Below are positions 2,318 to 60,259 of a DNA stretch of 64,000 nucleotides, piece after piece. Under the pieces are notes generated by a model. It was given only the letters and a program-made list of their open reading frames with translations. It did no database searches and was not told where the DNA came from. A program made the translations under genes and the position numbers. Every line of letters begins with the position of its first letter. Position 1 is the stretch's first letter. This DNA comes from Bacteroidota bacterium (lineage in GTDB: Bacteria; Bacteroidota; Bacteroidia; Chitinophagales; Saprospiraceae), in the NCBI GenBank assembly GCA_020160935.1, contig JAIUPL010000001.1, forward strand, positions 372,001-436,000. Reading direction: 5' to 3'.

Positions 2318-2394
2318 GAGGTGAGAAGTGAGAGGCGGGAGGTGAGAGGGTGTACGCTACGCCCTCTCACCTCCCGCCTCTCACTTCTCACCTC
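2318..2394. repeat. Hairpin element (site a), heptamer arms
   Basis: Perfect 33-base inverted repeat (2318-2350 and 2362-2394) around an 11-base loop. The arms are degenerate heptamers of the type GAGGTGA/GAAGTGA/GGCGGGA. It starts three bases after the TGA of the peroxiredoxin-like gene and lies before the convergent tRNA terminator. The loop holds GTACGCTAC, which recurs in the stem of site c. Confidence 0.9.
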
Positions 2395-2399
2395 TAAAC

Positions 2400-2425
2400 A
2401 AAAAAGCCTCCCCGAAGGAAGGCTT
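2400..2425 (-). terminator. Rho-independent terminator of tRNA-Gln
   Basis: On the minus strand a GCCTTCC/GGGAGGC stem with a TTCG tetraloop is followed by TTTTTTGTTT, four bases after the tRNA 3' end. Confidence 0.85.
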
Positions 2426-2429
2426 TCAG

Positions 2430-2500
2430 TTGGGTCACAAGGACTCGAACCCTGAATAACAGAACCAAAATCTGCTGTGTTACCATTACACCATGACCCA
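2430..2500 (-). tRNA. tRNA-Gln (anticodon TTG)
   Basis: The minus strand folds into a complete cloverleaf. The acceptor stem pairs TGGGTCA with TGACCCA, with discriminator A. The D arm is GTGTAATGGTAACAC. The anticodon stem GCAGA/TCTGT holds the loop TTTTGGT, giving anticodon TTG. The T arm is CAGGG-TTCGAGT-CCTTG. The U1-A72 pair is typical of tRNA-Gln. CCA is not encoded. A terminator follows directly. Confidence 0.95.
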
Positions 2501-2588
2501 ATCGCTTCTAAAGCGGGGCAAAATTAATAGGAATGCATGAAGTGTGCAAGCAATAGCGAAAAAAAAGAACAAGAAAGTTCGCAATGCC

Positions 2589-3008
2589 TCACTTCACGCG
2601 CGTCCAGTATTGTGTGCGGTAAAAAGGCCCCAGGTATCCGCGCACCACGAGCGTATTGGGATCGCCCTCTTTCAGCCACATTTTGCAACTGTACCATTTG
2701 CCTTTTTCGGGGTCGAGGATGTCGCCCGATTGCAGCATACCATCTTTTTGTACCATGTTTACCAAAAGGATCATGCCGACGAGCGGCTGGTCTTTGCGTT
2801 CGCCGGGGCATTTATCGCAGTGGGTAGGGGCGTTGTTGCGCAGGAGTTTTTCAATTTTGCCATACACTTTTCCACCACCTTCATATATCAGAATATGGCT
2901 TTTGGCTTCGCCGGTTTCGTCGTCTTTCGTGCGCCAGGTACCTAAATAGGATTGTGCCTGTAGTTGTGCTGCGGTGAAAACAAGCAGCGTGAAAAGGAGT
3001 TTTTTCAT
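2589..3008 (-). CDS. DUF2147 family secreted protein
   Basis: A 139-residue protein with a signal peptide (MKKLLFTLLVFTAAQLQAQ). The mature part has DUF2147 hallmarks: an early GTWRTKDDETGEAKSHILIY strand, a Cys pair in HCDKCPGE, and the C-terminal pattern WYSCKMWL...RGYLGPFYRTQYW. Family members are small periplasmic beta-rich proteins with no established biochemistry. The ATG at 3008 is chosen because it starts the signal peptide; a longer in-frame start at 3050 would run into the Thx terminator. It follows the Thx gene on the same strand but is separated from it by that terminator. Confidence 0.85.
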   Translation of the reverse strand: MKKLLFTLLVFTAAQLQAQSYLGTWRTKDDETGEAKSHILIYEGGGKVYGKIEKLLRNNAPTHCDKCPGERKDQPLVGMILLVNMVQKDGMLQSGDILDPEKGKWYSCKMWLKEGDPNTLVVRGYLGPFYRTQYWTRVK

Positions 3009-3029
3009 GGTAATATGGTTGGTTAGCGT

Positions 3030-3073: not shown

Positions 3074-3092
3074 AGAACGAATTGTCTGAAAA

Positions 3093-3215: not shown

Positions 3216-3306
3216 GTGGATGGAGATTTTGATTGCGTTGAAAAATGTTGATAAAGAGCGCCAAAGGTATACAGTTTTTGCAGAAATGCTGCCAATATCC
3301 GGAAAT

Positions 3307-5844: not shown

Positions 5845-6504
5845 TTAGAGGTGAGAAGTGAGAGGTGAGAGGTGAGAGAGACGCTGGATGGCAAAACTGA
5901 GGTGACGATGTGTTTCTGCCGTAAGATAGCGGATGGCCCAGTTTTGCTGGACACAAAATTCATTCACGGCCTCCACCACCCCGTACCGGACGCCGCCGTC
6001 CCAGTTGCCGGTCACATAATCGTGCCCGGCAATCCAGCCGTCGGGCTTGACAACTCGGGCGCAGGCATACAGTTCTGCCTTGGTAGTCTGGTAGGAATGG
6101 TCGGTATCGATATACACCCAATCGAAGTAGTGATCCGGGAACTGGCTCAATGCTGCTACACTGTTTTCCTGGTGGATACGCACTATTCCGGAGGCCAGTT
6201 CAGACTGAAATTTGAGGCGTACTTCATCCAGGTTTTTCCGAGATCGGGCGCCTTCCCAACTGTCGATTAAATGTAACATGGAAGGATGCGTTCGTTGCAG
6301 TATTGACCTGCTGAAATCGCCCCGGAACACCCCCAATTCTGCCACCACAACCTCATGTGGAAGGTAATCGAGCAAGGCCTCCCGATTCGGAATGGTTTGA
6401 AGATGCCGAACATGGGCCTCACTAATTTCTACATAAGGAATGCGCCGACTCTGACTTGTTCGCCAATGTTTCAACGCATTCAGAATGAGGCGTTTCCACA
6501 GCAT
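5845..6504 (-). CDS. Class I SAM-dependent methyltransferase (Methyltransf_24-like)
   Basis: 219 residues. The Rossmann-type motifs are visible: VVVAELGVFRGDFSRSIL (SAM-binding glycine loop), HLIDSWEG, DWVYIDTDHSYQTTKAEL and GWIAGHDYVTG. This pattern fits the Methyltransf_24 group, often acting on sugars or small metabolites; the substrate is unknown. It starts two bases after nadC stops. The last ten or so residues (HLSPLTSHL) and the stop codon are read from the heptamer array at site b, so the natural C-terminus has been replaced or extended by repeat sequence. Confidence 0.82.
   Translation of the reverse strand: MLWKRLILNALKHWRTSQSRRIPYVEISEAHVRHLQTIPNREALLDYLPHEVVVAELGVFRGDFSRSILQRTHPSMLHLIDSWEGARSRKNLDEVRLKFQSELASGIVRIHQENSVAALSQFPDHYFDWVYIDTDHSYQTTKAELYACARVVKPDGWIAGHDYVTGNWDGGVRYGVVEAVNEFCVQQNWAIRYLTAETHRHLSFAIQRLSHLSPLTSHL
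5848..5880. repeat. Single-arm heptamer array (site b)
   Basis: Four tandem heptamers GAGGTGA/GAAGTGA plus a partial unit, the same unit as sites a, h and l, with no opposing arm. It lies inside the 3' end of the methyltransferase frame and ends that gene. Confidence 0.85.
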
Positions 6505-11269: not shown

Positions 11270-12616
11270 ATGAAAAATAGCCTTCCCATCCTGCTGTGGA
11301 GCGTTTTTATAGGAATTATCAACGCTCAACCTGCTCCAATACGCCCGATTTCGTTAAGCGATTGTCTGCGCCTTTCGCTGGACAACAGCGCGCAAGTGCG
11401 CAAGGCGCAACTGGACCGACAGGGCATTGAAAAACGATTGCAAGAAGGCAGAAGTGCTGCATTGCCACAAATTAATGCAGGCGTAAATATGGATTACCTG
11501 CCGGTACTCCCCACCCAACTGATTCCGGGAGAACTGTTTGGTATGGCAGATAACACGTATTTGCCCGTGCAATTCGGCCGTTCCTGGCAACTCACCGGGT
11601 CAATCTCTGTGCAGCAGCAGTTGTACAATGAATCTGCCCGCCGAATGGCCCCGGCTGCCAATATTTCCAGAAATATCTACGATTTGCTGCAAACCCGATC
11701 GGAGGAGGATGTCATTTACAGCACTGCAACCGTTTTTTATCAAACCCTGCAAACGGAACAACTGCTTCGGGCGCTCAATGCCAATCTGGACAAACTGGAT
11801 GCACTGCAGCGCATGGCACAGTTGCAATTGGCCAACGGATATGCCATCCCTACCGATGTGAAACGCATTCAGGTAGCCCATACCAATCTGGAAACCCAGC
11901 GCCAAAATCTGTATACTGCCATCAGTGGCCTGCGGCAGACGCTTCAGTTTCTCTGCGGCGTTTCATACGACGAAGCATTCGATCCGGTAGACGACATGGC
12001 TGCTCCTGCGGCCGACTCGGCCCGTTGGCAAAACCTTGTACTTGCCGCTGAAACAACTACCGAATACAGGTTGCTGCTTCATCAGGTAGAACTCAATCAC
12101 ATACAACTGAACAGCCTGAAAGCAGAAAATGTGCCCAATTTCAGCGCATATGCCAGCGCTTATACCCAGACATTCCGGCCGGATGCCAATTTTTTCGACA
12201 TCGATCGCCGCTGGTATGGGGCGGTGGCTCTGGGCCTTAAAATGCAAATTCCCATATTCGACGGTTTTCGCCGACTCCACAAATCGGATTTTCTGGCCAT
12301 AGAAGGTCAAAAACTTGCAGAAGACCGCCGACAACTCAACAGTGCCAAGGAACTGGAATTCAGACAGGCACGCGAACAATTGCAAAGCGCCTTGCGCGGG
12401 CTCCGAACCCAGACGGATAACGTTGGCCTTGCGCGCGAAATCAGTGATAAACTCATGCTCCAGTATAAAGAAGGTGTGGTATCTCTCACCGATTTGCTCA
12501 ATGCTCAAACGGCTCTTTCCGAAGCGGAAACCAACTATTGGCAACAGGTTTTTAGTTACAAACTGGCTGTACTTAAAATGCTGAAAACTACTGGAAAACT
12601 CAATGAACTGAAATAA
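11270..12616 (+). CDS. TolC family outer membrane efflux protein
   Basis: 448 residues with a signal peptide ending at IINAQ. Two OEP repeats are visible: ISLSDCLRLSLDNSAQVRKAQL and, in the second half, KSDFLAIEGQKLAEDRRQL with LMLQYKEGVVSLTDLLNAQTALSEAETNY. TolC proteins form trimeric tunnels across the outer membrane for efflux or type I secretion. No membrane-fusion or inner-membrane pump gene lies nearby, so its partner is encoded elsewhere. Its stop codon lies inside the arm of the hairpin at site c, and the palindrome includes its last three codons. Confidence 0.9.
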   Translation: MKNSLPILLWSVFIGIINAQPAPIRPISLSDCLRLSLDNSAQVRKAQLDRQGIEKRLQEGRSAALPQINAGVNMDYLPVLPTQLIPGELFGMADNTYLPVQFGRSWQLTGSISVQQQLYNESARRMAPAANISRNIYDLLQTRSEEDVIYSTATVFYQTLQTEQLLRALNANLDKLDALQRMAQLQLANGYAIPTDVKRIQVAHTNLETQRQNLYTAISGLRQTLQFLCGVSYDEAFDPVDDMAAPAADSARWQNLVLAAETTTEYRLLLHQVELNHIQLNSLKAENVPNFSAYASAYTQTFRPDANFFDIDRRWYGAVALGLKMQIPIFDGFRRLHKSDFLAIEGQKLAEDRRQLNSAKELEFRQAREQLQSALRGLRTQTDNVGLAREISDKLMLQYKEGVVSLTDLLNAQTALSEAETNYWQQVFSYKLAVLKMLKTTGKLNELK

Positions 12617-12760
12617 GTCCTGAGTCGACAGTCCTGAGTCCTGAGTCTGTAGCGTACACCGGATGACCCTTGGCATAGTTAGATAGGAAAGTCAAGGGTC
12701 ATCCGGTGTACGCTACAGACTCAGGACTCAGGACTGTCGACTCAGGACTTACTTCAGTTC
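12605..12760. repeat. Hairpin element (site c), 58-base perfect arms extended to 68
   Basis: 12615-12672 and 12693-12750 are perfect inverted copies; with one mismatch the pairing runs from 12605 to 12760. The outer part is heptamers CCTGAGT/CGACAGT, then CTGTAG, then a locus-specific inner stem. The 32-base apex (12667-12698) has CCCTTGGCAT on one side and GTCAAGGG on the other and belongs to family 1. It overlaps the tolC stop. Confidence 0.95.
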
Positions 12761-12844
12761 TCAGGCAACCATTTCCCACGCTTATGCGTCATTCCACCCG
12801 TTTACGTAAGTAACACACAACTACCACCTGCTTTTTTTTTGACA

Positions 12845-15800
12845 ATGACGAAGAGGAATCTCCTTCTTGCGGCAACCAGCCTGCTATCGGTATGTGTATT
12901 GTATGCCTTTTCCTACCCGGAAATTGCGCGTACGCAGCTGCTCACAATATTTTTTCCGGAAAAAAATCTTCCGGTAGCCATTGATCGCTTTGCCGATGTA
13001 TCCGCCGAACCGGAATCTGCCCCTCCGCCCGCGGCAGTAGCCCCCGACACCCTGCCGCCCTTGCAGGAACGGTACGACGATTTTTTGCAAACCGGAGGAA
13101 GCAATCCGATCGACCTGAAAGATCCGAAGGCGATTGACCAGCAGGTGGAATACGATCCGACCACCGGGATGTACATCATTACCGAAAAAATTGGCGAGGA
13201 TTTTTATCGTGCTCCTACCTACATGACATTTGAGGAGTATGTACGCTGGCGCGACCAGAAGCAACAAAACGAGTATTTCGACCGCTTGCAGGGCGTAGTG
13301 TCTTCCGATAAAAAAAGCAGCAATGGCGTGGTGGACCCGATCGCCAAGTTTGACATCAAAAACTCGCTGATCGATCGCCTCTTTGGCGGTACCGATGTGA
13401 GCATCAAGCCGCAGGGCAATATCAACCTGACCTTCGGATTTGACTACCAGAAAATTCAGAACCCCATTCTGACCCTGCGCCAGCAACGCAACGGCAACTT
13501 CGACTTCGACATGGACATTAACATGAACGCGTCGGGCAAAATCGGGGAAAAACTCAACCTGAATTTCAACTACAATACGCAGGCTACCTTCGACTTCGAC
13601 AACCAAATGAAGTTGAATTACGATACCAAAGGTTTTTCCGAAGACGAAATCGTTCAGAATATCCAGGCAGGTAATGTGAATATGCCTTTGCGTTCCCAAC
13701 TGATTAAAGGAGCGCAAAACCTGTTTGGTATCAAAACGGAACTGAAATTTGGTCACCTGCGCACTACCCTCGTGGCCAGCCAGCAGCGCTCCAAACAACA
13801 AAGCCTGACCGTACAGGGCGGCTCGCAGGTGCAGACGTTTGAAAAACCCATCGACGAATACGACGAAAACCGCCACTTCTTTCTCAGCCACTGGAACCGC
13901 GACGAATTTGAGCCGGCCATGAAATGCCTGCCTGTACCTATGTCGTTGTTCAACGTAACACGCATGGAGGTGTGGATCACGAATGACAAACTGGCCACCG
14001 AACAATTCCGCGACATTGTAGCCGTGACCGACCTTGGTGAGGCTGATACTGCCAAAATGGTAAGCGACCAGTATGCACTGACGGCTCCGCCATATCTGGA
14101 TATCAAGGGAAAGGCCCTGCCCGACAACAACAACAATAGTTTGTATGCCCAACTGACTGAAGGGCTCAATGATGACCCGACGGGCCGTTACAACGACAAG
14201 GTAATTCGCCGCCTGACCAACGAACTGGGCCTGACGCAGATTCGGGATTTCGAAAAAATGAGCGGCCGCCTGCTCTCACCTTCCGAATATACCTACAACG
14301 AGCAACTTGGCTTCCTCAGCATCAACCTCAACGTGCAGCCCGACCAGGTGATCGGTGTGGCAGTAGAGTACACCTACAACGGTACTCCGCATAAAATCGG
14401 TGAATTTTCGAGCGACGTGCCGCGTACCAGCAGCCAGGACACGCTCAACACCAATGTGCTGTTTGTAAAAATGCTGAAAAGCACTACGGCCAACATCCAG
14501 TACCCGATCTGGGACCTGATGATGAAAAACGTGTATGCCGTAGGCACTGCCAATGTAGACCCCAACGAGTTCCGCTTCGATATTTATTATGAAGATCCGG
14601 GCAAAGGCCAGAAACGTTTCCTGGGCGGGGAAGGCAATGCTGATATTCCAGCGTCTATCCGTTCCAAACCATTGCTTCAATTGTTCCGGCTGGATACCTT
14701 GAACCTGCAAGGTGACCCGGGCCCCGATGGCATCTTCGACTTTGTGCCGGGTCTGACCATCAATCTTCGTTCGGGTCGTATCATGTTCCCGGTACTCGAA
14801 CCTTTCGGCAGTTATCTGGAAGGAAAATTGTCCGACGCGGGCGCTTCACAGGCCGTCGTAAATAAGTACGTGTATCGCCAATTGTACGACCTGACGCCAT
14901 TCCTCGCGCGGGAATACCAGCAATACAACCGATTTGTGCTGAAAGGATCGTATAAATCCAGTACGAGTTCTGAAATATCGCTTGGAACCTTCAACCTGCC
15001 GCAGGGCTCGGTGCGCGTTACTGCCGGCGGGCAGTTGCTTCGGGAAGGCGTCGATTACCAGATAGACTATAATATTGGTAAAGTGCGCATTCTGAACGAC
15101 GCTATCCTGCAATCAGGACAGAACGTAAACGTCAGTTTTGAAGACAATACCCTCTTTGGATTCCAGAGCCGAACGATGCTGGGCGCCCGATTCGACTACG
15201 AATTGAGCAAGGACATCAACATCGGCGCCACGTACATGAACCTGTTCGAACGCCCGCTAACCCAGAAGGTGAATTTTGGCGACGACCCGATCAACAACAA
15301 AATGTACGGGCTCGATTTCAGCATTTCCAAAGACGCGCCCTGGTTGACCAAACTGGTAGATAAAATTCCATTTATCGATACCAAAGAACCTTCCAGCATC
15401 ACGGCCCAGGCTGAGGTGGCAGCCCTGCAACCTGGTCACAACAAAGCCATCAACCAGGGCGGCGACAAAGGCGGTACGGTTTATCTCGACGACTTTGAAG
15501 GCAGCACGGCCAACCTGCCGCTCTCCAACCCGGCTAACTCCTGGGTGATTGCTTCGGTGCCTCAGGGCGACCTGACTGAATTCCCGGAAGGCAATGATAC
15601 CACATTGGCGCTGGGCGCCAACCGTGCCGGTCTTTCCTGGTACATTGCCGACCCCAGCGCCCGCGACCAGGTAGACGGTACCAATCCGTACACCACACAA
15701 ATCCAGTATCAGGACATTTTCCCGAACCGGCAGTTGACGCCGCTGGAACAGTCAGCCCTGCGCCCGCTCGACGTGACAATTTATCCGCGTGAGCGCGGCC

Positions 15801-18800
15801 CGTACAACTTCGACATACCGGGCGGATACATGGGCAAGTCGGCAGGTCTCACCACCAGCGGCCAACTCGACCAGCCGGGCACCCGCTGGGCAGGTTTTAT
15901 GCGCGGGTTGAATACCAACGACTTCGAAGCCGCCAACATCGAATTTGTCGAATTCTGGGTGCTGAACCCGTACATGGAGAAAAACGACAATACCAACGTT
16001 TCCGATGATGGTAGTATGTTCATCGATCTGGGCACGATTTCGGAAGATATCATGCGTGACTCGCGCCAATTTTTTGAAAATACCCTCCCGACCGGCCCGG
16101 GTACAGGCGCTACGGCTCCTACACCATGGGGCCGCGTACCGGTACAAACCCCGGTAGTGAACGCATTTGACAACGACCCCGACAAACGTGTGCTTCAGGA
16201 TATTGGTCTTGATGGCCTGAACAACGAAGGCGAACGGCAGTATTTCGCTGATTACGTCGCGACGATTATGGCTTCATCCCTGAGCCCGAATGCCAAACAG
16301 GCTATTATGGACGACGTATCCAATGACGACTTCGTGTATTTCCGCGATAGCCGTTTCGAAGGTGTAAATCCGGGTCTGCTGGCGCGTTACCGCCGGTTCA
16401 ACAACCAGGAAGGCAACTCGCCGGTGAACAATACCAGCAACCTCAACCCCTCGGCTACCAACTTGCCGGACATGGAAGACCTGGACCGCAACAACTCGCT
16501 GAACGAAAACGAATCGTACTACCGGTATAAAATCAAATTTACCAGTAAAGACCAAAACATCCCTGTTACAGGCGAAATGTATCGGGGCATCGACCTGGAC
16601 GACCCGCAAATGCAGGAACTGGTTACGGATACGGTAGTTTTCCGCCGCAATGGTGAATACTATGTTTGGTATCGTTTCAAACTGCCGCTCGACTATGCGC
16701 AGCGTCAGCAGGTAGGCGGTATTCAGGATCTGCGTTCGGTGCGTTTTGTGCGTATGCTGTGGAAAGGATTCACAGAGCAAACGACCTTCCGTTTCGCTAC
16801 CCTCGAACTCGGCCGCAACCAGTGGCGCCGTTTCAAACAGGCGCTTCCACAAATCGATGTACCCAGCGGTACGGTGTGCGACGTAGGTTTTTCTCCCATT
16901 CCTTTCGACATCAACTCCGTGAGCATCGAGGAAAACTCCGCGCGTACGCCATTTAACTATACGATTCCGTTTGGTATCCAGCGGGAGCAGTCGGTGGGCG
17001 CTTTCCCCGACATTTTGCAGAACGAGCAATCCCTGTCGATGAGCGTGTGCAGCCTGGGTTATTGTGACGCACGTGCCGTGTTCAAAAGCCTGAACCTCGA
17101 CCTGCGTCAGTACGAAAACCTGAAAATGTTCGTACACGCCGAACAGCAGGATGAAACCATCTTCCCTTTCGACAGCAGCGACCTGACCATTTTCATGCGC
17201 CTGGGTTCTGACTATGTGAACAACTACTATGAGTATGAGGTGCCTCTGTACCCATCTCAAAGGTTAAACATCGTCAATGCCTCGCCGGATAGCCGCCAGT
17301 ACAAAGATGAGGTGTGGAGGCCCGAAAACAGTTTTGATTTTCCACTTGAATTATTGACGGAAGTAAAAAAACAACGCAATGCCAGTGGCACGACAGACCC
17401 CATTTTTGTAATTCCCGACCCGAATAACCCTCGAAACAAGGTAAAAGTAGTGGGCAACCCCAATCTTGGCTACGTAAAAGGCGTCATGGTGGGTGTGCGC
17501 AACGTCGATCCGGACAAACAACAGCACTGTGTGGAAGTGTGGCTCAATGAGTTGCGCCTCAGTGGCTTCAACGAACGCGGCGGATATGCAGGCCTTGCAC
17601 GGGTGGATATGAAACTGGCCGACTTCGGCAATGTGTCGCTGGCCGGCAACTACACCAGCATCGGCTGGGGAAGCCTCGAACAAAAACTCATCCAGCGCCA
17701 GCGTGAGGAAGTAATTCAGGTCGATGTTTCCACCAACCTCGAACTGGGCAAATTCCTTCCGGAAAAATCGGGCTTGAAAATTCCATTCTACGCACAGTAT
17801 TCCAATATCACCCGCAACCCGGAATACGACCCGTACGACCTGGATATCAAATTGAAAGACAAGATTCGCGACGAGGCAGATCCGGCAAAAAAAGAAGAAA
17901 TCCGCACCCTGGCACAGGATGTGACCACCATCAAAGGGTTCAATTTCACCAACGTGCGCAAGGAACGAAAAGGCGGCGCCCGCAAAGTGCCACTGCCCTG
18001 GAACGTTGAAAACTTCAGCCTGACGTATGCATTCAACCAGCAAAAACGCCGTACGCCATTCCTCGTCAACGACGAACAGAATCGCTACAAAGGCGCGCTC
18101 GACTGGCAGTACGCCACGGGCCTGAAGCCGATTACGCCGTTTAAAAAACTGATCAAAAACGACAAGTACCTGAAGTTCATTTCGGAGTTCAATTTAAACC
18201 CGATTCCGAATACCTACGGCTTCAACAGCAATATGGAGCGCCTGGCAGGTGTAACGACTTATCGTTTCGCAGGGGAAGACCCTCTCCTGAATACCTATTA
18301 CAACCGCCGTTTTACCTGGGACCGCAACTACGACCTGGGTTGGGATATTTCCAAAGCGCTGCGCTTCAATTTTGATGCAACGGCACGCAGCCTGATAGAC
18401 GAGCCGCTGGAATACAATGGAGATGGTTCTGTCGTCACAAAACAACAACGCCGCGACTCCATTATTACCAACATCCTCAAACTGGGCCGCCCGAAAAATT
18501 ACAATCACTCGGCCAGCCTCAACTGGACCCTGCCGTTCAAGGCGATTCCAATGATGGACTGGGTGTCGATGAAAGCCACCTATACGGCCGGGTACACCTG
18601 GACGGCACAGTCGCTGAAATTGCAGTACCTCGATGCCGGCGATTATGCTGATATCGTCAATTCACGTAGCCTGGGTAACGTTATTCAGAACAACAATACC
18701 CGTCAGATCAATGGCGATCTGAACTTCGAAGGTTTGTATAACAAAAGCAAATACCTGCAAAAAATCAACAAACCGGCTAAAAAGACGTCTTCGAAAGACA

Positions 18801-20560
18801 AAAAGACCTCCGATGACACTACCGGCGGACTAAATCCCGACGAGGAAGGCGGTGGCGGCAAAACAGCCAAAAACAACAATAAAAAATCGGGTGGCAAAAA
18901 TGATCCCAAAGGCAGAAATACACCTGATTCCAAGGATATTTCCGACAAATCAGCCGAAAGTGTACGGCCCGCTGAAGGCAGCGATGGAAAAACTGCCGGC
19001 GCTCCGGATAAAGCAGGTGACAAAAACAGCAAAGACAAAAATTCAAAGGAATCCAAAGAAGGGGGCGACAACAAGGCTAAAAGCAAAGACCGCCAGCCTT
19101 CCATGGCCGAGCGCATTGCACTGCGCCCGCTGATGCTGATCCGCAAAGGCCGATTTACCTACAGCGAAAATTTCAATACCGTGGTGCCTGGTTTCACACC
19201 CGATACCAAACTCATGGGCCTGAGCGAAGGTTTTGCTGCTCCGGGTTGGGCATTTGTAGCAGGTATTCAGCCGGGCACCGAATGGCTTGACAAGGCAGCC
19301 GAAAAAGGATGGATTACCCAGCGCCCCGAACTCAACCAGCAGGTGATGCGCAATTACACCCAGAATTTCGATGCAGGCCTCACCGTAGAGCCATTCCAGG
19401 ATTTCCGCATCGAACTGACGGCTAATAAACAGTATTCCCGCAATTCCACCGAACTGTTCAAGGACCAGAACTTCCTGCTTGATCCAAATGAGGTACAGTT
19501 CGAACACCGCGCCCAGCGCGATCTGGGTAGTTATACCGTGTCGTATTTCGCCATGAATACGCTGTTCAATAAAGATCTGAACGGTATTTTCACCAAGTAT
19601 GAAGATTATCGCAAAGTGATTTCACAACGGCTGGGTACCGATATTGGTGTGCTCGATCCGCACGAAACAGATGAAGGTTACGTAAAAGGTTATGGTAAAA
19701 TTCAGCAGCAGGTGCTGATTCCTGCATTTATTGCAGCGTACTCGGACGCCAATCCGCAAACAGTGGGCTTGAATATTTTCAAAACCCGCCCGGCTGTCAA
19801 CTGGAAACTGAACTACAACGGCCTTGCCAAAGTAGGTAATTTGAGCAAGGTGTTTTCGAGTGTGCAAATCTCGCACGGTTACAAGAGCACCCTGACGGTG
19901 AACTCCTACAACACCGATATTTTCTACGATCCGAACAATGCGTACACCATTGATCCGCTGAACTCCAACTATGTGGCGCGTTTTGAGATTCCACAGGTAG
20001 TCATTACTGAACAGTTGCAGCCGATGCTGGGTATCGACATCAAGTTGAAAAATGACATGACGTTTAAAACCGACCTGAAAAAAAGCAGGACGCTGGCAAT
20101 GTCGTTTATCGACTACCGCCTGGCCGAAACGCAATCGGAAAGTTATACCGTCGGGTTCGGTTACCGGATCAAGGATGTAAATATTCCGTTCCTGACGGGT
20201 AAAAAGGCAAAAAAAGCCAGCAGCAAGTCGAAAAAGAAACCGGCTCCCAAGCCTGATGCTTCTCCGACCCGCCCTGCTCCGGCAGCAGGAGGTTCGCAGC
20301 CGAATGATGTAAACATCAAGTTCGACTTCGAGGTGCGCGACGATATTACGATCAATCACCAACTCGACCAGTTGGTAGAGGCCATTCCGACACGTGGAGC
20401 ACGCACAATTAGTATCAACCCGTCGGTAGAATACGCACTGAATCGTCGACTGAAATTGCGTCTGTTTACGGACTACCGCAAAACGGTACCGAAGACATCG
20501 CAGTCATTCCCGATTACTACACTGAGTTCGGGTGTAACGGTGCAGTTCCAGTTGAATTAA
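12845..20560 (+). CDS. sprA: T9SS outer membrane translocon SprA
   Basis: A 2571-residue giant protein matching SprA (Sov in Porphyromonas) across its length. It forms the large outer membrane barrel through which T9SS cargo leaves the periplasm and is needed for gliding in motile species. Recognisable parts are a signal-like N-terminus, the early RLFGGTDVSIKPQGNINLTF region, internal GGDKGGTVYLDDFEGS, PLDVTIYPRERGPYNFD and VEVWLNELRLSGF. A charged Lys/Asp/Gly/Ser-rich stretch at about 1977-2087 and a second Lys/Pro-rich one at about 2453-2485 look like extracellular or periplasmic loop expansions. The ATG at 12845 is chosen over a TTG two codons upstream. It has type B cargo genes on both sides. 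Confidence 0.95.
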   Translation: MTKRNLLLAATSLLSVCVLYAFSYPEIARTQLLTIFFPEKNLPVAIDRFADVSAEPESAPPPAAVAPDTLPPLQERYDDFLQTGGSNPIDLKDPKAIDQQVEYDPTTGMYIITEKIGEDFYRAPTYMTFEEYVRWRDQKQQNEYFDRLQGVVSSDKKSSNGVVDPIAKFDIKNSLIDRLFGGTDVSIKPQGNINLTFGFDYQKIQNPILTLRQQRNGNFDFDMDINMNASGKIGEKLNLNFNYNTQATFDFDNQMKLNYDTKGFSEDEIVQNIQAGNVNMPLRSQLIKGAQNLFGIKTELKFGHLRTTLVASQQRSKQQSLTVQGGSQVQTFEKPIDEYDENRHFFLSHWNRDEFEPAMKCLPVPMSLFNVTRMEVWITNDKLATEQFRDIVAVTDLGEADTAKMVSDQYALTAPPYLDIKGKALPDNNNNSLYAQLTEGLNDDPTGRYNDKVIRRLTNELGLTQIRDFEKMSGRLLSPSEYTYNEQLGFLSINLNVQPDQVIGVAVEYTYNGTPHKIGEFSSDVPRTSSQDTLNTNVLFVKMLKSTTANIQYPIWDLMMKNVYAVGTANVDPNEFRFDIYYEDPGKGQKRFLGGEGNADIPASIRSKPLLQLFRLDTLNLQGDPGPDGIFDFVPGLTINLRSGRIMFPVLEPFGSYLEGKLSDAGASQAVVNKYVYRQLYDLTPFLAREYQQYNRFVLKGSYKSSTSSEISLGTFNLPQGSVRVTAGGQLLREGVDYQIDYNIGKVRILNDAILQSGQNVNVSFEDNTLFGFQSRTMLGARFDYELSKDINIGATYMNLFERPLTQKVNFGDDPINNKMYGLDFSISKDAPWLTKLVDKIPFIDTKEPSSITAQAEVAALQPGHNKAINQGGDKGGTVYLDDFEGSTANLPLSNPANSWVIASVPQGDLTEFPEGNDTTLALGANRAGLSWYIADPSARDQVDGTNPYTTQIQYQDIFPNRQLTPLEQSALRPLDVTIYPRERGPYNFDIPGGYMGKSAGLTTSGQLDQPGTRWAGFMRGLNTNDFEAANIEFVEFWVLNPYMEKNDNTNVSDDGSMFIDLGTISEDIMRDSRQFFENTLPTGPGTGATAPTPWGRVPVQTPVVNAFDNDPDKRVLQDIGLDGLNNEGERQYFADYVATIMASSLSPNAKQAIMDDVSNDDFVYFRDSRFEGVNPGLLARYRRFNNQEGNSPVNNTSNLNPSATNLPDMEDLDRNNSLNENESYYRYKIKFTSKDQNIPVTGEMYRGIDLDDPQMQELVTDTVVFRRNGEYYVWYRFKLPLDYAQRQQVGGIQDLRSVRFVRMLWKGFTEQTTFRFATLELGRNQWRRFKQALPQIDVPSGTVCDVGFSPIPFDINSVSIEENSARTPFNYTIPFGIQREQSVGAFPDILQNEQSLSMSVCSLGYCDARAVFKSLNLDLRQYENLKMFVHAEQQDETIFPFDSSDLTIFMRLGSDYVNNYYEYEVPLYPSQRLNIVNASPDSRQYKDEVWRPENSFDFPLELLTEVKKQRNASGTTDPIFVIPDPNNPRNKVKVVGNPNLGYVKGVMVGVRNVDPDKQQHCVEVWLNELRLSGFNERGGYAGLARVDMKLADFGNVSLAGNYTSIGWGSLEQKLIQRQREEVIQVDVSTNLELGKFLPEKSGLKIPFYAQYSNITRNPEYDPYDLDIKLKDKIRDEADPAKKEEIRTLAQDVTTIKGFNFTNVRKERKGGARKVPLPWNVENFSLTYAFNQQKRRTPFLVNDEQNRYKGALDWQYATGLKPITPFKKLIKNDKYLKFISEFNLNPIPNTYGFNSNMERLAGVTTYRFAGEDPLLNTYYNRRFTWDRNYDLGWDISKALRFNFDATARSLIDEPLEYNGDGSVVTKQQRRDSIITNILKLGRPKNYNHSASLNWTLPFKAIPMMDWVSMKATYTAGYTWTAQSLKLQYLDAGDYADIVNSRSLGNVIQNNNTRQINGDLNFEGLYNKSKYLQKINKPAKKTSSKDKKTSDDTTGGLNPDEEGGGGKTAKNNNKKSGGKNDPKGRNTPDSKDISDKSAESVRPAEGSDGKTAGAPDKAGDKNSKDKNSKESKEGGDNKAKSKDRQPSMAERIALRPLMLIRKGRFTYSENFNTVVPGFTPDTKLMGLSEGFAAPGWAFVAGIQPGTEWLDKAAEKGWITQRPELNQQVMRNYTQNFDAGLTVEPFQDFRIELTANKQYSRNSTELFKDQNFLLDPNEVQFEHRAQRDLGSYTVSYFAMNTLFNKDLNGIFTKYEDYRKVISQRLGTDIGVLDPHETDEGYVKGYGKIQQQVLIPAFIAAYSDANPQTVGLNIFKTRPAVNWKLNYNGLAKVGNLSKVFSSVQISHGYKSTLTVNSYNTDIFYDPNNAYTIDPLNSNYVARFEIPQVVITEQLQPMLGIDIKLKNDMTFKTDLKKSRTLAMSFIDYRLAETQSESYTVGFGYRIKDVNIPFLTGKKAKKASSKSKKKPAPKPDASPTRPAPAAGGSQPNDVNIKFDFEVRDDITINHQLDQLVEAIPTRGARTISINPSVEYALNRRLKLRLFTDYRKTVPKTSQSFPITTLSSGVTVQFQLN

Positions 20561-24125: not shown

Positions 24126-24330
24126 GTTGGGGGTTGATAAAGGTTGATGAGGGTTGATAAGAGTTGATGAGGGTTGATATTCAGCCACTCTATTAAGGTA
24201 GAATTTCTCTTCATTGAGCCGCTGAATATCAACCCTCATCAACCCTCATCAACCTTTATCAACCCCATCAACCTCATCAACCCTCATCAACCTCATCAAC
24301 CCCATCAACCTCACCAACCTTTCGCATTAC
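24126..24330. repeat. Hairpin element (site e), decamer arms, family 2
   Basis: Begins at the base after the synthase stop. The arms are tandem GGTTGATGAG-type decamers on the left and the complement on the right, where more units are present. The 65-base core at 24171-24235 starts GGGTTGATATTCAGCCACTC and ends TGAATATCAACCC. It aligns without gaps to the cores of sites f and p. It fills most of the gap before serC. Confidence 0.95.
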
Positions 24331-25423: not shown

Positions 25424-25558
25424 TAAGAGGTTGATGAGGGTTGATAAAGGTTGATGAGGGTTGATATTCATCGGCTCGATGAAGAAAAAATGGCCCTTGC
25501 TCGAGTCGATGAATATCAACCCTCATCAACCTTTATCAACTCTTATCAACCCTCATCA
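25421..25558. repeat. Hairpin element (site f), family 2, inverted orientation
   Basis: Fills the whole gap from the serC stop codon to the start codon of the next gene. The arms are GGTTGATGAG-type decamers. The reverse complement of 25458-25522 aligns without gaps over 65 bases with the cores of sites e and p, including the loop words TTTTTTCTTCATCGAG. Confidence 0.95.
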
Positions 25559-33449: not shown

Positions 33450-33506
33450 CCACTCTCGCTTCTCACCTCTCGCTTCTCACCTCTCGCTTCTCACCTCTCA
33501 CCTCTA
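33450..33506. repeat. Single-arm heptamer array (site h)
   Basis: About eight heptamers alternating CTCTCGC and TTCTCAC, with CTCTCAC at the end, on the plus strand. It fills the whole gap from the TAG of the amidohydrolase to four bases before the DUF58 start. No opposing arm is present. Confidence 0.9.
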
Positions 33507-34823: not shown

Positions 34824-34925
34824 GAAGTGATGAGTTATAAGTGATGAGTTATGAGTGTGGGTGCTGTACCATGGGCTGTGTTTTAGAGCAGCCAATGGTA
34901 CCGGTACCACATCATTCATGCCAAC
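34824..34925. repeat. Decayed hairpin element (site i), family 1
   Basis: Begins right after the DUF58 TAA with heptamers AGTGATG/AGTTATA/AGTTATG. The apex at 34868-34899 is a 32-base family 1 core with ACCATGGGCTG and CAGCCAATGGT. The left side matches the outer left arm of site m at 38 of 39 positions. The right heptamers are eroded. Confidence 0.85.
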
Positions 34926-35217: not shown

Positions 35218-35349
35218 AGTCCTGAGTCGACAGTCCTGAGTCCTCAGTCTGTAGAGTGTACCAATTACTTTTGGCATTTACTTAAAGAGAAGCCAAAAGT
35301 AATTGGTACACTCTACAGACTGAGGACTCAGGACTATCGACTCAGGACT
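35218..35349. repeat. Hairpin element (site j), 58-base arms, family 1
   Basis: 35218-35275 pairs with 35292-35349 at 57 of 58 positions around a 16-base loop. The outer 37 bases (heptamers CCTGAGT/CGACAGT and CTGTAG) match site c with one change. The inner stem differs from c but still pairs fully. The 32-base core at 35268-35299 has CTTTTGGCATT and AGCCAAAAG. Confidence 0.95.
35294..35301 (-). promoter_or_regulatory. -7 promoter motif in the stem of site j, reading toward the TrpR-like gene
   Basis: The minus strand reads TACTTTTG (TAnnTTTG). Because it lies in a palindrome, the same motif also occurs on the plus strand at 35267-35274. Confidence 0.4.
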
Positions 35350-40111: not shown

Positions 40112-40231
40112 GAGTTATGAGTTATAAGTTATGAGTTTTACTCACATTGCTATTGGTCACACAATTGAAGAAGCCAAAAGCAACGTGAGTAAAACTCATA
40201 ACTCATAACTTATAACTCATAACTTAACTCA
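40112..40231. repeat. Hairpin element (site k), family 1
   Basis: Starts directly after the GH20 stop and overlaps the stop of the convergent gene at 40229. The arms are GAGTTAT(G/A) heptamers, the right arm having one extra unit. The inner stem TTTTACTCAC/GTGAGTAAAA pairs well. The core (40150-40180, 31 bases) has CTATTGG and GAAGCCAAAAG. Confidence 0.93.
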
Positions 40232-40711
40232 TAGCTCCCCCAAAGCATCAATCATCGTTTTGAGCGCAATAAAGATCGGTTCGCGGCCTTCTTTGGTGAC
40301 CAGCGATTCCGGGTCATCTTCATCTTCCAGCACGGCCTCTTCGGCGAAAGCAATGAGGTCTTCCTGATCGGTGCTTTCAAAAAACGGATCGAGGCGATCA
40401 CGAAATTTTTTACCTTCGGTGTGCTCCAGAATTTCGTAATTTTTTTCCTCCGCTTCGCCAATCTGGTCCTCCGAAACGGCTTCCAGCACGCCATTTACCT
40501 TTACAATTGAATTCCACGCAATGAGCGCCAGGTATTGAAGATAACCTTTCTCATCTTCATTCAACAAGTCGAAATGCTCACTGAACAGCCAGGCAAAAAG
40601 TACAGGCTGAGCCTCGGCAAAGGCTTCCATTTTCTGCTCATACTGCCCTTCGGGGAGTTCTTCCAGTTCCTCAATGACGTCGTCTATGATGTTTTCGCTT
40701 ACAAATTTCAT
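40229..40711 (-). CDS. Conserved hypothetical acidic protein
   Basis: 160 residues, strongly acidic and helical (VIEELEELPEGQYEQKMEAFAEAQP; EEAVLEDEDDPESLVTKEGREP). There is no signal peptide, membrane segment or known motif, so it is probably cytosolic. I do not recognise the family. It has the best promoter in the window, with both -33 and -7 boxes. Its stop codon lies in the right arm of hairpin k. Confidence 0.72.
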   Translation of the reverse strand: MKFVSENIIDDVIEELEELPEGQYEQKMEAFAEAQPVLFAWLFSEHFDLLNEDEKGYLQYLALIAWNSIVKVNGVLEAVSEDQIGEAEEKNYEILEHTEGKKFRDRLDPFFESTDQEDLIAFAEEAVLEDEDDPESLVTKEGREPIFIALKTMIDALGEL

Positions 40712-43262: not shown

Positions 43263-43685
43263 ATGAAAATTCTTATTATCAACGGCCCTAACCTCAACTT
43301 GTTGGGTAAACGCGAACCTGAAATTTATGGAAATCGCACATTTGAGCAATTTCTGGCAGAATTGCAGGCTGGATTTCCACAAATAGAGATCGATTACTTT
43401 CAGAGTAACCATGAAGGCGCCCTGATTGACCGCATCCATGAAGCCGGTTTTTCGACAGACGGTATCATCCTGAATGCCGGCGCATATACGCACACCTCCA
43501 TCGCGCTGGCCGATGCTATTGCCGCCGTGCCGGCGCCGGTAATCGAGGTGCATATCAGCAATGTTCATCAGCGCGAGCCATTTCGACACCATTCGTACCT
43601 GTCGGCCAAATGCGTGGGGAGTATTGTGGGGCTGGGGCTGGAAGGGTATCGGCTTGCGGTAGAGTATTTAGAGAGTTATAAGTGA
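43263..43685 (+). CDS. aroQ: Type II 3-dehydroquinate dehydratase
   Basis: 140 residues. It dehydrates 3-dehydroquinate to 3-dehydroshikimate in the shikimate pathway as a cytosolic dodecamer. Motifs are [21 protein letters not shown] with the catalytic Tyr, [29 protein letters not shown] with the catalytic His/Asn region, and [20 protein letters not shown]. The ATG at 43263 is just six bases after a GATTTTTG near-match to the -7 box, so the mRNA may be leaderless. The last codons (ESYK and TGA) are read from the heptamers of site m. Confidence 0.95.
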
Positions 43686-43957
43686 TGAGTTATGAGTGTT
43701 GGTGCTGTACCATTGGCATTTCGGGTGAGTTGAGAGGGTTGAGGGGTTGAGATGTTGAGGGTTGAGGTACTTATCTTTTGGCATTCTTGATTGAGCAACC
43801 TAAAAGTAGAGGTTGTTCGGAAAAGAGTGTTCATCGATGCTTCTCTGAACAACCTCCAAAAATAAACATCTCAACCCTCTCAACCCTCTCAACTCACCCG
43901 AAATGCCAATGGTACAGCACCAACACTTATAACTCATCACTTATAACTCATAACTCT
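43672..43957. repeat. Composite nested hairpin element (site m), two family 1 units
   Basis: The outer arms (about 43672-43756 and 43865-43957) have AGTTAT(G/A) heptamers, GGTGCTGTACCATTGGCATT and GGTTGAG heptamers, and pair over about 85 bases. Inside lies a second 32-base family 1 core (43775-43806, CTTTTGGCATT to CCTAAAAG) and a third small stem (AGGTTGTTC/GAACAACCT). It fills nearly all of the 335-base gap between aroQ and porZ. Confidence 0.93.
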
Positions 43958-53753: not shown

Positions 53754-53757
53754 GATT

Positions 53758-53897
53758 AGTTATCCGTTATCAGTTATTGGTTATCAGGGTGGTAGGGCAC
53801 CATCTGTACCAATGCTTCGTATCTGTTTTATGTAGCCAAACTTTTGTACAGATGGTGCCCTACCACCCTGATAACCAATAACTGATAACGGATAACT
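53758..53897. repeat. Hairpin element (site n), 52-base perfect arms
   Basis: 53758-53809 and 53846-53897 are perfect inverted copies around a 36-base loop. The outer heptamers are CCGTTAT/CAGTTAT/TGGTTAT. The right arm contains part of the TAG of the convergent gene at 53896. The core does not match family 1 or 2. Confidence 0.95.
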
Positions 53898-54633
53898 ATT
53901 CCCCGAACATTTCTTCCGCCTTCTTTTCCAGTTCCGACATCGGGTAAATACCCACCAGGCGCCCTTCAATACTCAGGCTGCCGCTGCCATAGTTTTTTTT
54001 GTATTTCACCAGCCCGATGCCTTTGGCGTACCACTCTTCGCCTTTGCCTTCCACTTCGGTATTGCCTTCCTTTTTATTGCCGATGGCCTCGGTCAGGCTG
54101 AAGCGGATACAGGGGAGTTGTTTGTTGAGGATTTCATAATTGGGAGCATCACCCAAAAAACGGCGATTGCGAATGACGTACACGGTGGCCAGGGTATCAT
54201 CCGGCGGATGAAAACTGACTGAAAACAGGAAAACGCCGGTAGAATCCTTTACCTGAAACGGAAAAATATCGGGTGCTGTAATGGCGGCACGTGTTTGTAT
54301 GGGCTCTCCGGAAATGGAATCGGGTTCGAATAGCATGTATTCCCGTGCCTGCGTGCCATTGTCCACCACCTTTTCCCGGCAAATCTGGCCGATCCGAAAA
54401 AACTGGTCGTAGTAGGTGCTACTTAGAAAAATCCCGCTGTCGCGCGAAACCGACCGATAAAACCAGTATTCCGGCGTAACCACACCATTCTGGCTCACTT
54501 CATACTCGTACACCAGTCCGCGACGAAGTTCGTCGATGGGGAAATAGTAGGCTTTTATATCGCGTTTGCCGTCTCCGGTACAAGCCGCAAAGTATATCCA
54601 GCAAAAAAAGATAAAAGCCCAGGTGCGCAACAT
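53896..54633 (-). CDS. Hypothetical lipoprotein downstream of metF
   Basis: 245 residues. The signal ends WIYFAAC, a lipobox. The mature chain has FPIDELRRGLVYEYEVSQNG, YWFYRSVSRDSGIFLSSTYYD and a terminal half with IRFSLTEAIGNKKEGNTEVEGK and GIGLVKYKKNYGSGSLSIEGRLVGI. The last part resembles a recurrent beta-sheet lipoprotein type of Bacteroidota without known function. It starts 11 bases after metF and is probably co-transcribed. Confidence 0.7.
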   Translation of the reverse strand: MLRTWAFIFFCWIYFAACTGDGKRDIKAYYFPIDELRRGLVYEYEVSQNGVVTPEYWFYRSVSRDSGIFLSSTYYDQFFRIGQICREKVVDNGTQAREYMLFEPDSISGEPIQTRAAITAPDIFPFQVKDSTGVFLFSVSFHPPDDTLATVYVIRNRRFLGDAPNYEILNKQLPCIRFSLTEAIGNKKEGNTEVEGKGEEWYAKGIGLVKYKKNYGSGSLSIEGRLVGIYPMSELEKKAEEMFGE

Positions 54634-57697: not shown

Positions 57698-57798
57698 CCG
57701 ATTATGTTTTGCTGTTTGATTCGTTTCAAAGACCGGACGTATCACCGGTCATCGCATATGAAAAACGGCTGCAAATATCGGATTATCCTTGGTATATG

Positions 57799-57989
57799 GA
57801 ACACGGATTACACGGATAGTATGCGGATTACACGGATTGCATGGATAAAAAATGGATTCGCGAGTCAAAAAGAAAAGTTGTAGAGATTTCCCCCTCCTGA
57901 AAATCCGCGTAATCCGCATTCTGTCTGTGCAATCCGCGTTGCAGAAAATCCGCGTAATCCGCATTCTATCTGTGCCATCCGTGTTGCAG
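57799..57989. repeat. Repeat element (site o) with a 45-base tandem duplication
   Basis: The left part (57799-57846) has ACACGGATT/GCGGATT units; the right part is two direct copies of a 45-base unit (57900-57944 and 57945-57989, 42 of 45 identical) built from complementary AATCCGCGT words. Left and right pair loosely. It ends three bases before the stop of the gene at 57993. Confidence 0.88.
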
Positions 57990-57992
57990 GTT

Positions 57993-59075
57993 TCACCAGT
58001 TATTCAGCAATTCGGGCTCTTCCCGATACATATCTTTCACGGCAGCCATCAAGGCGGCGCCTCCGAATGTGAGGGTGTAATGGTGTGAAAAATAGATAAC
58101 CCATTCCAAAGATGCATCGAACACCATGCCTTCGTGCGCGCCGGTAAAAATCTGGCTGGCATTTATTTCAAACAAGCCGGTTTCGCAGTCCAACAGATAT
58201 AAGGGTTTGTGTACATGCTGTTGTATCCATTCCGTTACCTGCTGTTTCCGGTCGTCGGCCATTCCGTTCAGGAACACCACTTCAGAAGGGGAGGACTGGG
58301 TAAGCGGATCCCAGAAACTGGAATCAAAATTCCATTTTTCCTTGAGTTGGCTGCGCAACGTAGCGGCTGTTTCGCCCAGTACCCGTTTGAACATATTGCT
58401 TGAAACAGGCTCCGGCTGCATCGGATCGCCCGGGAACAGCACAGGGAGTTCGCTGGCAATGGTGCGTGCCGACTTCTCCACAATACGAAAAAGCGAACGC
58501 AGGTATTCGGGTACATTGGGGTCAATGGGAATCTGCACCTGCTTTTCACGGCGACCGATGTGGATATCGAGCAGGAATTTTACTGGCGCGTTGGCGGCTA
58601 TTTTCTCTACCGCTTCCAGTGCCAGATCGGAATTAAAAATGGCGTAATAGTGCAGGTAATTGCCTGAAAAACGTTCGTTACCTCTCGGAATCCCGTTTCG
58701 GGTAGCCGTCAGCATCGATTCGATGGGATCGAGATACCCCGTCACCCAGTCGTCGTACCAGGGCGCTCCGGCGGGGTAGCCGCGCCAGCGAGGCATCTGG
58801 AAATGCAGGGTCATCACCTGCAGGTTGTTTTGATGGGGTTTGTGGTAGCCTTCAACAGCCCATTTTTCGGCTTCGAGGCGCAGTGCTGTGACGGGGTCTT
58901 TTGACGTGGAAAAGGATTGAAGCGTGGTACTGTCCGGGGATTGCCCGCAGCGGCCCGTTTCTATCAGAATCTGGGCGTCGGGTGTATTCGACAGCCGCAC
59001 GTAGTGCCATCGTTGCCCGATTTGTTTGTAGAGGATTAATTGAAAAGTATTCACTAACAATAAGTTTTCTGGCAT
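57993..59075 (-). CDS. Hypothetical protein with possible WGR-like N-terminus
   Basis: 360 residues, not firmly recognised. Residues about 8-80 (FQLILYKQIGQRWHYVRLSN; ETGRCGQ; ALRLEAEKWAVEGYHK) resemble the small WGR domain seen beside DNA-related proteins, but this is only a visual match. The remainder is globular and has no catalytic motif that I know. There is no signal peptide, so it is probably cytosolic. It is divergent from the VanW-family gene. Confidence 0.65.
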   Translation of the reverse strand: MPENLLLVNTFQLILYKQIGQRWHYVRLSNTPDAQILIETGRCGQSPDSTTLQSFSTSKDPVTALRLEAEKWAVEGYHKPHQNNLQVMTLHFQMPRWRGYPAGAPWYDDWVTGYLDPIESMLTATRNGIPRGNERFSGNYLHYYAIFNSDLALEAVEKIAANAPVKFLLDIHIGRREKQVQIPIDPNVPEYLRSLFRIVEKSARTIASELPVLFPGDPMQPEPVSSNMFKRVLGETAATLRSQLKEKWNFDSSFWDPLTQSSPSEVVFLNGMADDRKQQVTEWIQQHVHKPLYLLDCETGLFEINASQIFTGAHEGMVFDASLEWVIYFSHHYTLTFGGAALMAAVKDMYREEPELLNNW

Positions 59076-59244
59076 TTTTCTTTTTAACCGGCAAGGGTAT
59101 AGAAAAGTTCGTGCCAGACTTTTTCAGGAAACGGCAGGGATACCGGTAGTTTTGGACTTTATTTGCAAATAAACGGATGAAAAATCATTTTTCTCACCCG
59201 TCATACCAAAAAAGGGGTAGAAAATCGACCATTATCAAAAAACA

Positions 59245-60072
59245 ATGACACTCGCAACGGATCACACTGCACAGCGCCCCATACGTCGTTCGGCTTTTCG
59301 CCGCCGCATCGGCCGTTGGTTTTATATTTGGAAGCGTCGCTGGCAATGGTGGACAGGCAAAACAAAATGGGCGACACAACGCTATGCACCCCTGGAAGAG
59401 GAGGTAACTACCCACCACACCCCGCTCCTGCGCACCCTGAAACAGGTGGATATGTACTTGCAGGAGAACAAAAAAACCAACCTTCGACTGGCTGCTGAAA
59501 AAATTTGCGGCGTGTTGATACAGCCAGGTGAAACCTTTTCTTTCTGGTACCTCGTGGGGCGTCCCGCTGCACGGAAAGGATACCTGGAAGGGCTGGTGCT
59601 GGAAAACGGCCACATTGGAAAAGACATCGGCGGCGGGCTTTGTCAGATGGGCAACCTGATTTACTGGATGGCGCTGCATACGCCGCTTACGGTGACGGAG
59701 CGCTGGCGGCACAGTTACGATGTCTTTCCCGATGAAAACCGCCGGTTGCCGTTCGGCTCGGGCGCGACGCTGGCCTACAATTATATCGATTTGCAACTGC
59801 GCAATGATACTTTACAAACGTATCAACTTTTTATCTGGCTGACGGACACAGACCTGCACGGGGCCTTTTACAGCCCTGCTCCTTCGCCATATCGTTATGA
59901 AGTGTTTGAAAGTCACCACTTTATACGCCACGAACCCTGGGGCGGGTATTCGCGGCATAACGCCATTGCACGGCGGGTGTATGATGTTGCTTCGGGCACT
60001 TTGTTGCGCGAGGAACCGGTAACGCAAAACCATGCGCTGATGATGTATGAGCCGTTTTTGGAGGGGGGATAA
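59245..60072 (+). CDS. VanW family protein
   Basis: 275 residues. A basic N-terminus (FRRRIGRWFYIWKRRWQWW) precedes the VanW domain: NLRLAAEKICGVLIQPGETFSFW, VGRPAARKGYLEGLVLENG, the signature IGGGLCQMGNLIYW, and SGATLAYNYIDLQLRNDT. VanW occurs in some VanB-type vancomycin gene clusters, but its biochemical role is unknown and there are no other van genes here, so no resistance should be inferred. No signal peptide is evident. Hairpin p begins right after its TAA. Confidence 0.88.
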   Translation: MTLATDHTAQRPIRRSAFRRRIGRWFYIWKRRWQWWTGKTKWATQRYAPLEEEVTTHHTPLLRTLKQVDMYLQENKKTNLRLAAEKICGVLIQPGETFSFWYLVGRPAARKGYLEGLVLENGHIGKDIGGGLCQMGNLIYWMALHTPLTVTERWRHSYDVFPDENRRLPFGSGATLAYNYIDLQLRNDTLQTYQLFIWLTDTDLHGAFYSPAPSPYRYEVFESHHFIRHEPWGGYSRHNAIARRVYDVASGTLLREEPVTQNHALMMYEPFLEGG

Positions 60073-60259
60073 AGGTTGATGAGGTTGATAAAGTTGATGA
60101 GGGTTGATGAGGGTTGATGAGGGTTGATATTCAGCCACTCGATAGCGATACAATTTTTCTTCATCGAGTGGCTGAATATCAACCCTCATCAACCCTCATC
60201 AACCCTCATCAACTTTATCAACCCTCATCAACTTTATCAACCTCATCAACCCCATCAAC
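60073..60259. repeat. Hairpin element (site p), decamer arms, family 2
   Basis: Fills the gap between two convergent stop codons. The arms are GGTTGATGAG-type decamers, with more units on the right. The 65-base core (60121-60185) shares its first 20 bases exactly with site e. Its inner stem (TTCAGCCACTCGAT with ATCGAGTGGCTGAA) pairs perfectly. Confidence 0.95.

Follow-up and report, generated by a model that had tools for sequence, protein, structure and literature searches.

The window analysed here, a 64,000-nucleotide stretch of a Bacteroidota draft genome (G000:C43:372001-436000; genome G000, 5.84 Mb in 51 contigs, 97.9% complete), carries behind its genes long hairpins whose arms are made of short tandem units. 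These repeats are non-random, occur in many copies and many families, and are sited at the 3′ ends of genes. Comparison with related genomes reveals that the hairpins keep orthologous spacers while their arm sequence diverges or is exchanged, and it seems to be mirror symmetry, rather than the letters, that persists at these slots. They provide a measurable case, at 21 slots common to two species, where the structure is retained although the sequence often is not. The best named matches of one window protein, at 85% identity, come from metagenome-derived genomes with the labels Saprospiraceae and Bacteroidetes (L023, L024); judging by that one protein, the host, an uncultured bacterium, most likely belongs to the Saprospiraceae.

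Abundance, architecture and placement of the hairpins

We used one hairpin finder throughout (match +1, mismatch −3, score at least 18, span at most 300) and applied it to a sample comprising the window and 20 further stretches of G000, 461,172 bp in all. The sample contains 98 long inverted repeats, against none in six dinucleotide shuffles. This speaks strongly against chance palindromes, which an earlier note on the window had named among the outcomes that would undo its proposal; that proposal, of dispersed tandem-armed hairpins at gene 3′ ends in a Bacteroidota genome, is supported, and the observation is confirmed as real. Hairpins span 3.0% of the sample, a length that corresponds to 16% of its intergenic bases. 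Extrapolation from the whole sample gives about 1,240 copies per genome, possibly an overestimate, as seven of the ten stretches not chosen blind (L014, L016-L020, L022) contain decamer places that were already listed; the ten chosen blind to repeat matches (C43:1-200000) hold 38 repeats in 200 kb, equivalent to about 1,109 per genome.

Among the arms that reach 24 nt, 91 in number, 58 are tandem, where shuffled arms give 3.5 on average; the period is 7 in 36 of the tandem arms, 8 in eight, 9 in six and 10 in eight. Single arms have a median length of 45 nt, and the 5′ arm usually contains more G than C (76 of 98 hairpins; the converse in 16 of 98). Family labels, assigned by the first matching pattern or by eye, are distributed as AGTCCTG 15, GGTTGATRAR 12, GTGAGAG 11, GAGTTAT 10, GGTTATC, GCGGATT and CGCAGAT 6 each, CTTTGTG 5, GCCAAGCGTT 4, and ATTTACGATT, GGCAAAA and GTGTTTT 3 each; four small labels total 6, and 8 of the 98 hairpins are unlabelled. 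The single family that had been proposed is not supported; the elements fall into many, in which cores and arms combine as modules. The core string GTAGAGT, found in 26 of 98 cores and 62-fold above the rest of the sample, occurs with four arm types (AGTCCTG, GTGAGAG, CGCAGAT and GTGGTGA). One universal conserved core was rejected, the candidate CACTC[GT]A being present in only 14 of 98 cores.

Genome-wide, the core GTAGMGTNNACC has 447 matches versus 11 for the reversed pattern, and the decamer string 246 versus none. The pattern of the decamer hairpin is matched 38 times in G000; it is also present in four of 36 other same-genus genomes (28 in G016, 15 in G028, 9 in G006 and 8 in G031), and in none of 23 other genomes of the order. 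Applied to other Bacteroidota, the same finder returned 24 repeats in 1.28 Mb drawn from 80 loci, 61 of which held none.

The position of the hairpins was judged against genes called with a simple hexamer scorer, whose start positions are unreliable. None of the 98 has over half of its length within a called gene; 26 extend partly over a gene end, by 43% at most. Elements between codirectional genes sit a median of 5 nt past the stop codon and 89 nt ahead of the next start, and 37 of 43 are closer to the stop. Occupancy is highest in convergent spacers (35 of 69), intermediate in codirectional spacers (42 of 168) and lowest in divergent spacers (12 of 67).

Shared slots and exchanged sequences

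The nearest relative found, G028, has 84-91% DNA identity to G000 in the stretches compared. Among 57 orthologous spacers, G028 carries a hairpin at all 21 that hold one in G000, and at only three of the 36 that are hairpin-free in G000, two of these three being weak and not tandem (Fisher p 9.5e-13). When only G000 spacers of at least 100 nt are counted, G028 has a hairpin at 21 of 21 occupied and 2 of 18 hairpin-free spacers. Of 14 hairpin-free spacers of at least 60 nt with a gene 3′ end, 13 are still hairpin-free in G028. Divergent spacers retain their hairpins as well (4 of 4). When G016, G006 and G031 (about 76–78% identity at the slot searched) are pooled, hairpins are present at 10 of 11 occupied and 4 of 28 hairpin-free G000 spacers.

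The sequences occupying these slots are far less constant. In 9 of the 10 slots shared with G016, G006 or G031 the units seem, by eye, unrelated to those of G000. Even in G028, seven of the 21 slots score 12–27 against their G000 counterpart, not above the 90th percentile (28) of non-orthologous pairs, and the orthologue is the best-scoring match in only 8 of 21. The spacer between an aminotransferase gene and a YgjP-like gene illustrates this exchange. Our same-genus slot search covered 42 genomes, with loci fetched from 30 (G000 included), and this spacer could be measured in 25. It is 134 bp long in G000, where it holds a decamer hairpin, and 3–20 nt long in 9 of the 25. G028 also has a decamer hairpin here, G016 a GTGAGAG hairpin, G006 and G031 hairpins of a GTGAGT type, G034 and G005 still others, and several more genomes single-arm arrays.

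Coupled arm changes and nested hairpins

Arm-to-arm identity within an element is 0.87–1.00 in G000 and 0.86–1.00 in G028, values partly built in by a finder that selects matching pairs. Orthologous left arms of the two species are 0.25–0.93 identical, at most 0.73 in 20 of 21 slots, a measure that drops where arm lengths differ. Because of these two biases, we place more weight on matched insertions and deletions. At slot 28505 both arms are 7 bp shorter in G028, and at slot L008:15485 G028 has one extra 44-bp copy in each arm. Compensatory point changes would not readily alter the length of the two arms by the same amount.

Nesting of one hairpin within another suggests how a family may be exchanged. 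At L011:3686-3979, one of the seven exchanged slots, the outer GCGGATT arms are common to G000 and G028, and the inner CTTTGTG hairpin is present in G000 only. A search for hairpins within hairpins returned nine pairs, several of which are one array continuing; three were judged clear (L011:3686-3979, L017:19627 and L022:6557). At L021:12059, outer GGTTAT units are common to both genomes and an inner GTTGAG hairpin is confined to G000.

A proposed DNA-level account of the repeats

Our favoured interpretation, held at somewhat better than even confidence, is of dispersed palindromic repeats in which processes at the DNA level, probably template switching, keep the two arms of an element alike, and in which slots behind genes are refilled partly by loop insertion. 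When the repeat is single-stranded or extruded as a cruciform, the polymerase would switch template between the arms and copy one arm onto the other, and slippage would add or remove units. Under this proposal, arm-to-arm copying preserves complementarity with no need for compensatory point mutations. The hairpin of another family could then enter the loop of a resident one, the old outer arms decaying, such that the family changes and the slot is never empty, as the clear case at L011 suggests. The host would tolerate the elements chiefly where promoters are distant, at gene 3′ ends and in convergent spacers, and there they might incidentally be of use as a bidirectional 3′ boundary. Passages of two earlier studies report that template switching homogenises the arms of quasipalindromes (PMC8604942) and that it creates and maintains RNA hairpins (PMC8794818). 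As proposed here, the arms in those systems are alike through copying and not through compensatory mutation; template switching is a mutational process and not a repeat family, and we invoke it as a mechanism.

Several points weigh against this account beyond the two biases in the identity figures. What looks like arm-to-arm copying could also come from an element being replaced by another dispersed copy, and a selected structural role would likewise yield conserved slots. Slots are not always kept: G031 lacks a hairpin at one of five G000 slots, and the more distant G022 lacks one at the sole G000 slot compared (0 of 1). Loop insertion is backed by orthology in only one clear case, and at the other six exchanged slots no clear trace of an earlier family is left. 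In stems this long, a single mismatch may be neutral under any function, and a test of RNA selection based on G-U pairs loses force accordingly.

A stronger form of the idea, which we regard as tentative and hold at clearly less than even confidence, is that palindromy itself is inherited. Sites would be self-renewing, with arms rewriting each other, loops being taken over and the site outlasting its sequences; copies would be made by hairpin replication with no dedicated transposase, and unit sequences would drift as a block. The shared slots make testable the question of whether post-gene repeats are kept by RNA selection or by symmetry-restoring DNA processes. They also carry a caution: conserved, covarying hairpins are usually taken as evidence of a functional RNA, yet they might arise with no RNA selection.

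Long palindromes are cleaved by SbcCD in Escherichia coli, and the SbcD model (TIGR00619) has no match in the G000 draft at its 97.9% completeness, an absence that might permit hairpins. Loss of SbcCD as the permissive condition was nevertheless rejected, as hairpin-poor genomes fail the SbcD cut-off too; of 60 genomes searched, 11 exceed it and 46 have some match, mostly partial.

Alternative explanations

The competitor that fares best, although we consider it doubtful, is that the hairpins are selected RNA-level 3′-end structures (terminators, stabilisers of 3′ untranslated regions or insulators of convergent transcription) for which any hairpin suffices and sequence is free. Their close spacing behind stop codons, the high occupancy of convergent spacers, the complete retention of slots in G028 and the very stable predicted folds of paired sites are all consistent with such a role. 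Set against this, the stems lack the T run of intrinsic terminators: as the earlier note had remarked, none follows the arms, the mean being 2.9 T per 10 nt, and only 3 of 117 gene-facing ends reach 6 T or more in that length. Nor do mismatches on the sense strand of codirectional stems show an excess of G-U pairs (29 GU versus 28 AC), which removes a support that the suggested RNA-level role might have had. The aminotransferase/YgjP-like spacer is only 3–20 nt long in 9 of 25 same-genus genomes, and divergent spacers keep their hairpins too. Judged from sequence, a 3′-end role of the hairpins is possible. The specific proposal that they replace terminators was rejected: T-tailed terminators follow 10 of 112 genes with a hairpin and 12 of 116 without one, with 0 of 66 in the divergent control. 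Separately, convergent sites, at which each strand faces a gene, have 15 GU versus 30 AC mismatches on the plus strand (p 0.036), an imbalance that the DNA-level account does not explain.

It is rather unlikely, in our assessment, that gene 3′ ends are mere insertion hotspots for mobile hairpins, with neither loop preference nor arm copying. The siting of elements away from starts would fit, as would the hairpins that relatives carry at spacers that are hairpin-free in G000 (4 of 28 and 3 of 36, as given above). Yet almost all permissive hairpin-free spacers stay hairpin-free in G028, indicating that not all fill, and a hotspot does not account for matched changes in both arms.

We judge it improbable that these are REPIN-like elements mobilised by a Y1 (RAYT/TnpAREP) transposase. 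G000 has two Y1 genes. In a survey of 27 same-genus genomes, 43 repeats were called in 376 kb from the twenty genomes with Y1, against 1 in 123 kb from the seven without, with one non-random stretch per genome, several of them picked at known Y1 or hairpin places; six of the seven genomes without Y1 are also small (4.3 Mb or less) and maybe of one lineage. Passages of PMC6006769 describe atypical palindromes adjoining Bacteroidetes Y1 genes, and the flank of one G000 Y1 gene (L002) has the string CGGCTCGGTAA in common with some decamer cores. Against mobilisation, a tandem-armed repeat adjoins none of 31 Y1 loci (22 from the same genus, including both of G000; the Y1 loci of G028, G016 and G031 lie outside the set), and the palindromes there, where present, are short and REP-like. 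Those adjoining the two G000 Y1 genes are rare in the sample. On the basis of the 31 loci, Y1/RAYT mobilisation was dropped as the main account. The two G000 genes themselves, at L001 (G000:C42:24808) and L002 (G000:C29:2332), carry REP-like palindromes unlike the tandem-armed hairpins.

A translational role has very little probability. Here the units of the 5′ arm, not being multiples of three, would place stop codons in all frames after the gene. Stops in every frame do occur in 48% of 117 gene-facing 5′ arms versus 19% of shuffled ones, with 0.077 stops per nt versus 0.057, and 3′ arms show no excess (0.037 versus 0.039). These figures derive from few families that are not independent, and shuffling removes the periodicity; moreover, the consensus units GTGTTTT and GGCAARG have, by eye, no stop on either strand, and the hairpin form is left unexplained. 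A stop codon in every unit was thus rejected: the excess is real, yet some units have none. Finally, chance palindromes or assembly artefacts can practically be dismissed even for a draft of 51 contigs, given the empty shuffles and the hairpins at the same slots in the separate assembly of G028.

Relation to known repeats

Among described elements, the closest parallels are repetitive extragenic palindromic (REP) sequences, with the bacterial interspersed mosaic elements and REPINs built from them and their RAYT transposases, which are likewise dispersed intergenic palindromes in high copy. REP elements are located 3′ of genes, as these hairpins are. The differences lie in the tandem 7–10 bp arm units, the many coexisting families and the exchange of families at shared slots; the hairpins here also flank none of the 31 Y1 loci examined, unlike REPINs with RAYT. 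Passages of PMC3733652 give 20–40 bp for a whole REP element, less than a typical single arm in our sample, and passages of PMC1525189 report that other elements insert into REPs.

Cyanobacterial short tandemly repeated repetitive sequences resemble our elements in being tandem heptamers in spacers; to our knowledge they are not paired as long arms. Heptamer direct repeats of TAACTGA have been reported in five Bacteroidetes (MacGregor 2015, passages of PMC4679880). They share intergenic 7-bp tandem arrays with the elements described here, and one unit form at window position 53757, AGTTATC, reads on the opposite strand as a rotation of TAACTGA. According to those passages (PMC4679880), however, the Maribeggiatoa repeats are direct, lie mostly just upstream of start codons and include one inverted case in 170 sets, whereas ours are paired-arm elements, the codirectional ones mostly nearer a stop. 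Of 394 other Bacteroidota genomes, 14 have triple GAGTTAT arrays; among 11 such loci examined (L253-L263, one per genome), ten are single-arm and one, L255, is a hairpin. In comparison with miniature inverted-repeat transposable elements, short spacers without the element exist and element ends are too variable to judge target-site duplication, Y1 being the only parent sought.

The earlier note knew of no described Bacteroidota element of this kind. Searches of open-licence papers turned up no description of the tandem-armed hairpin architecture, and neither set of passages from PMC4679880 and PMC6006769 describes it. The note's remark calls for some qualification all the same, as heptamer repeats and Y1-adjacent palindromes in the phylum are, as those passages attest, already known.

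Sites in the window

Inverted repeats and tandem arrays are present in the window where the earlier note had placed them. It had counted 17 sites; we count 15 discrete ones, comprising 11 hairpins returned by the strict finder and four single-arm arrays, with its letters a-q not matched individually. Of three stems it described as perfect, a (34 bp) and n (53 bp) are, and c, at 12605, has one mismatch in 68. Its statement that no site lies wholly inside a gene agrees with the hairpins, none of which is mostly genic, and is uncertain for the array at 5847-5878, within the end of a weakly scored open reading frame. The sites, to which no strand is assigned, are as follows.

2317-2395: hairpin with AGAGGTGA-type heptamer arms, beginning 2 nt past the stop of an open reading frame ending at 2314
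5847-5878: single-arm AGAGGTG array, at the end of open reading frame 5845-6504 (minus strand)
12605-12760: hairpin with AGTCCTG heptamer arms and core GTAGCGTACACC
24130-24320: hairpin with GGTTGATRAR decamer arms, core CAGCCACTC and extra 3′ units; a GAGTTAT hairpin stands here in G028
25429-25558: hairpin with GGTTGATRAR decamer arms that fills its spacer, which measures 3–20 nt in 9 of the 25 measurable same-genus genomes
28504-28610: hairpin with AGTCATC heptamer arms, each 7 bp shorter in the G028 copy
33453-33505: single-arm array CTCTCGCTTCTCAC between codirectional genes, with different units in G016, G006 and G031
34825-34857: single-arm array AAGTGATGAGTTAT
35218-35349: hairpin with AGTCCTG heptamer arms and core GTAGAGTGTACC
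40112-40237: hairpin with GAGTTAT heptamer arms, beginning at a stop codon
41737-41764: single-arm CACCTCT array between convergent genes; the G028 spacer has ACTACTC units
43673-43949: composite hairpin with outer GAGTTAT and inner GGTTGAG arms; the G028 spacer has an AGTCCTG hairpin
53757-53898: hairpin with GGTTATC heptamer arms and a perfect 53-bp stem; G028 has the same family with more units
57800-57989: hairpin with ACACGGATT arms and a 45-bp tandem duplication on the right side
60068-60262: hairpin with GGTTGATRAR decamer arms and core CAGCCACTCGAT

In the spacer of the array at 33453-33505, G006 alone has a hairpin called by the finder; the G016 and G031 hairpins were recognised by eye. 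A search of the window against Rfam at the gathering threshold matched one tRNA only and no hairpin family. A tRNA gene lies at 2430-2500 (minus strand), near the hairpin at 2317-2395, and an open reading frame of 2573 amino acids occupies 12839-20560 (plus strand).

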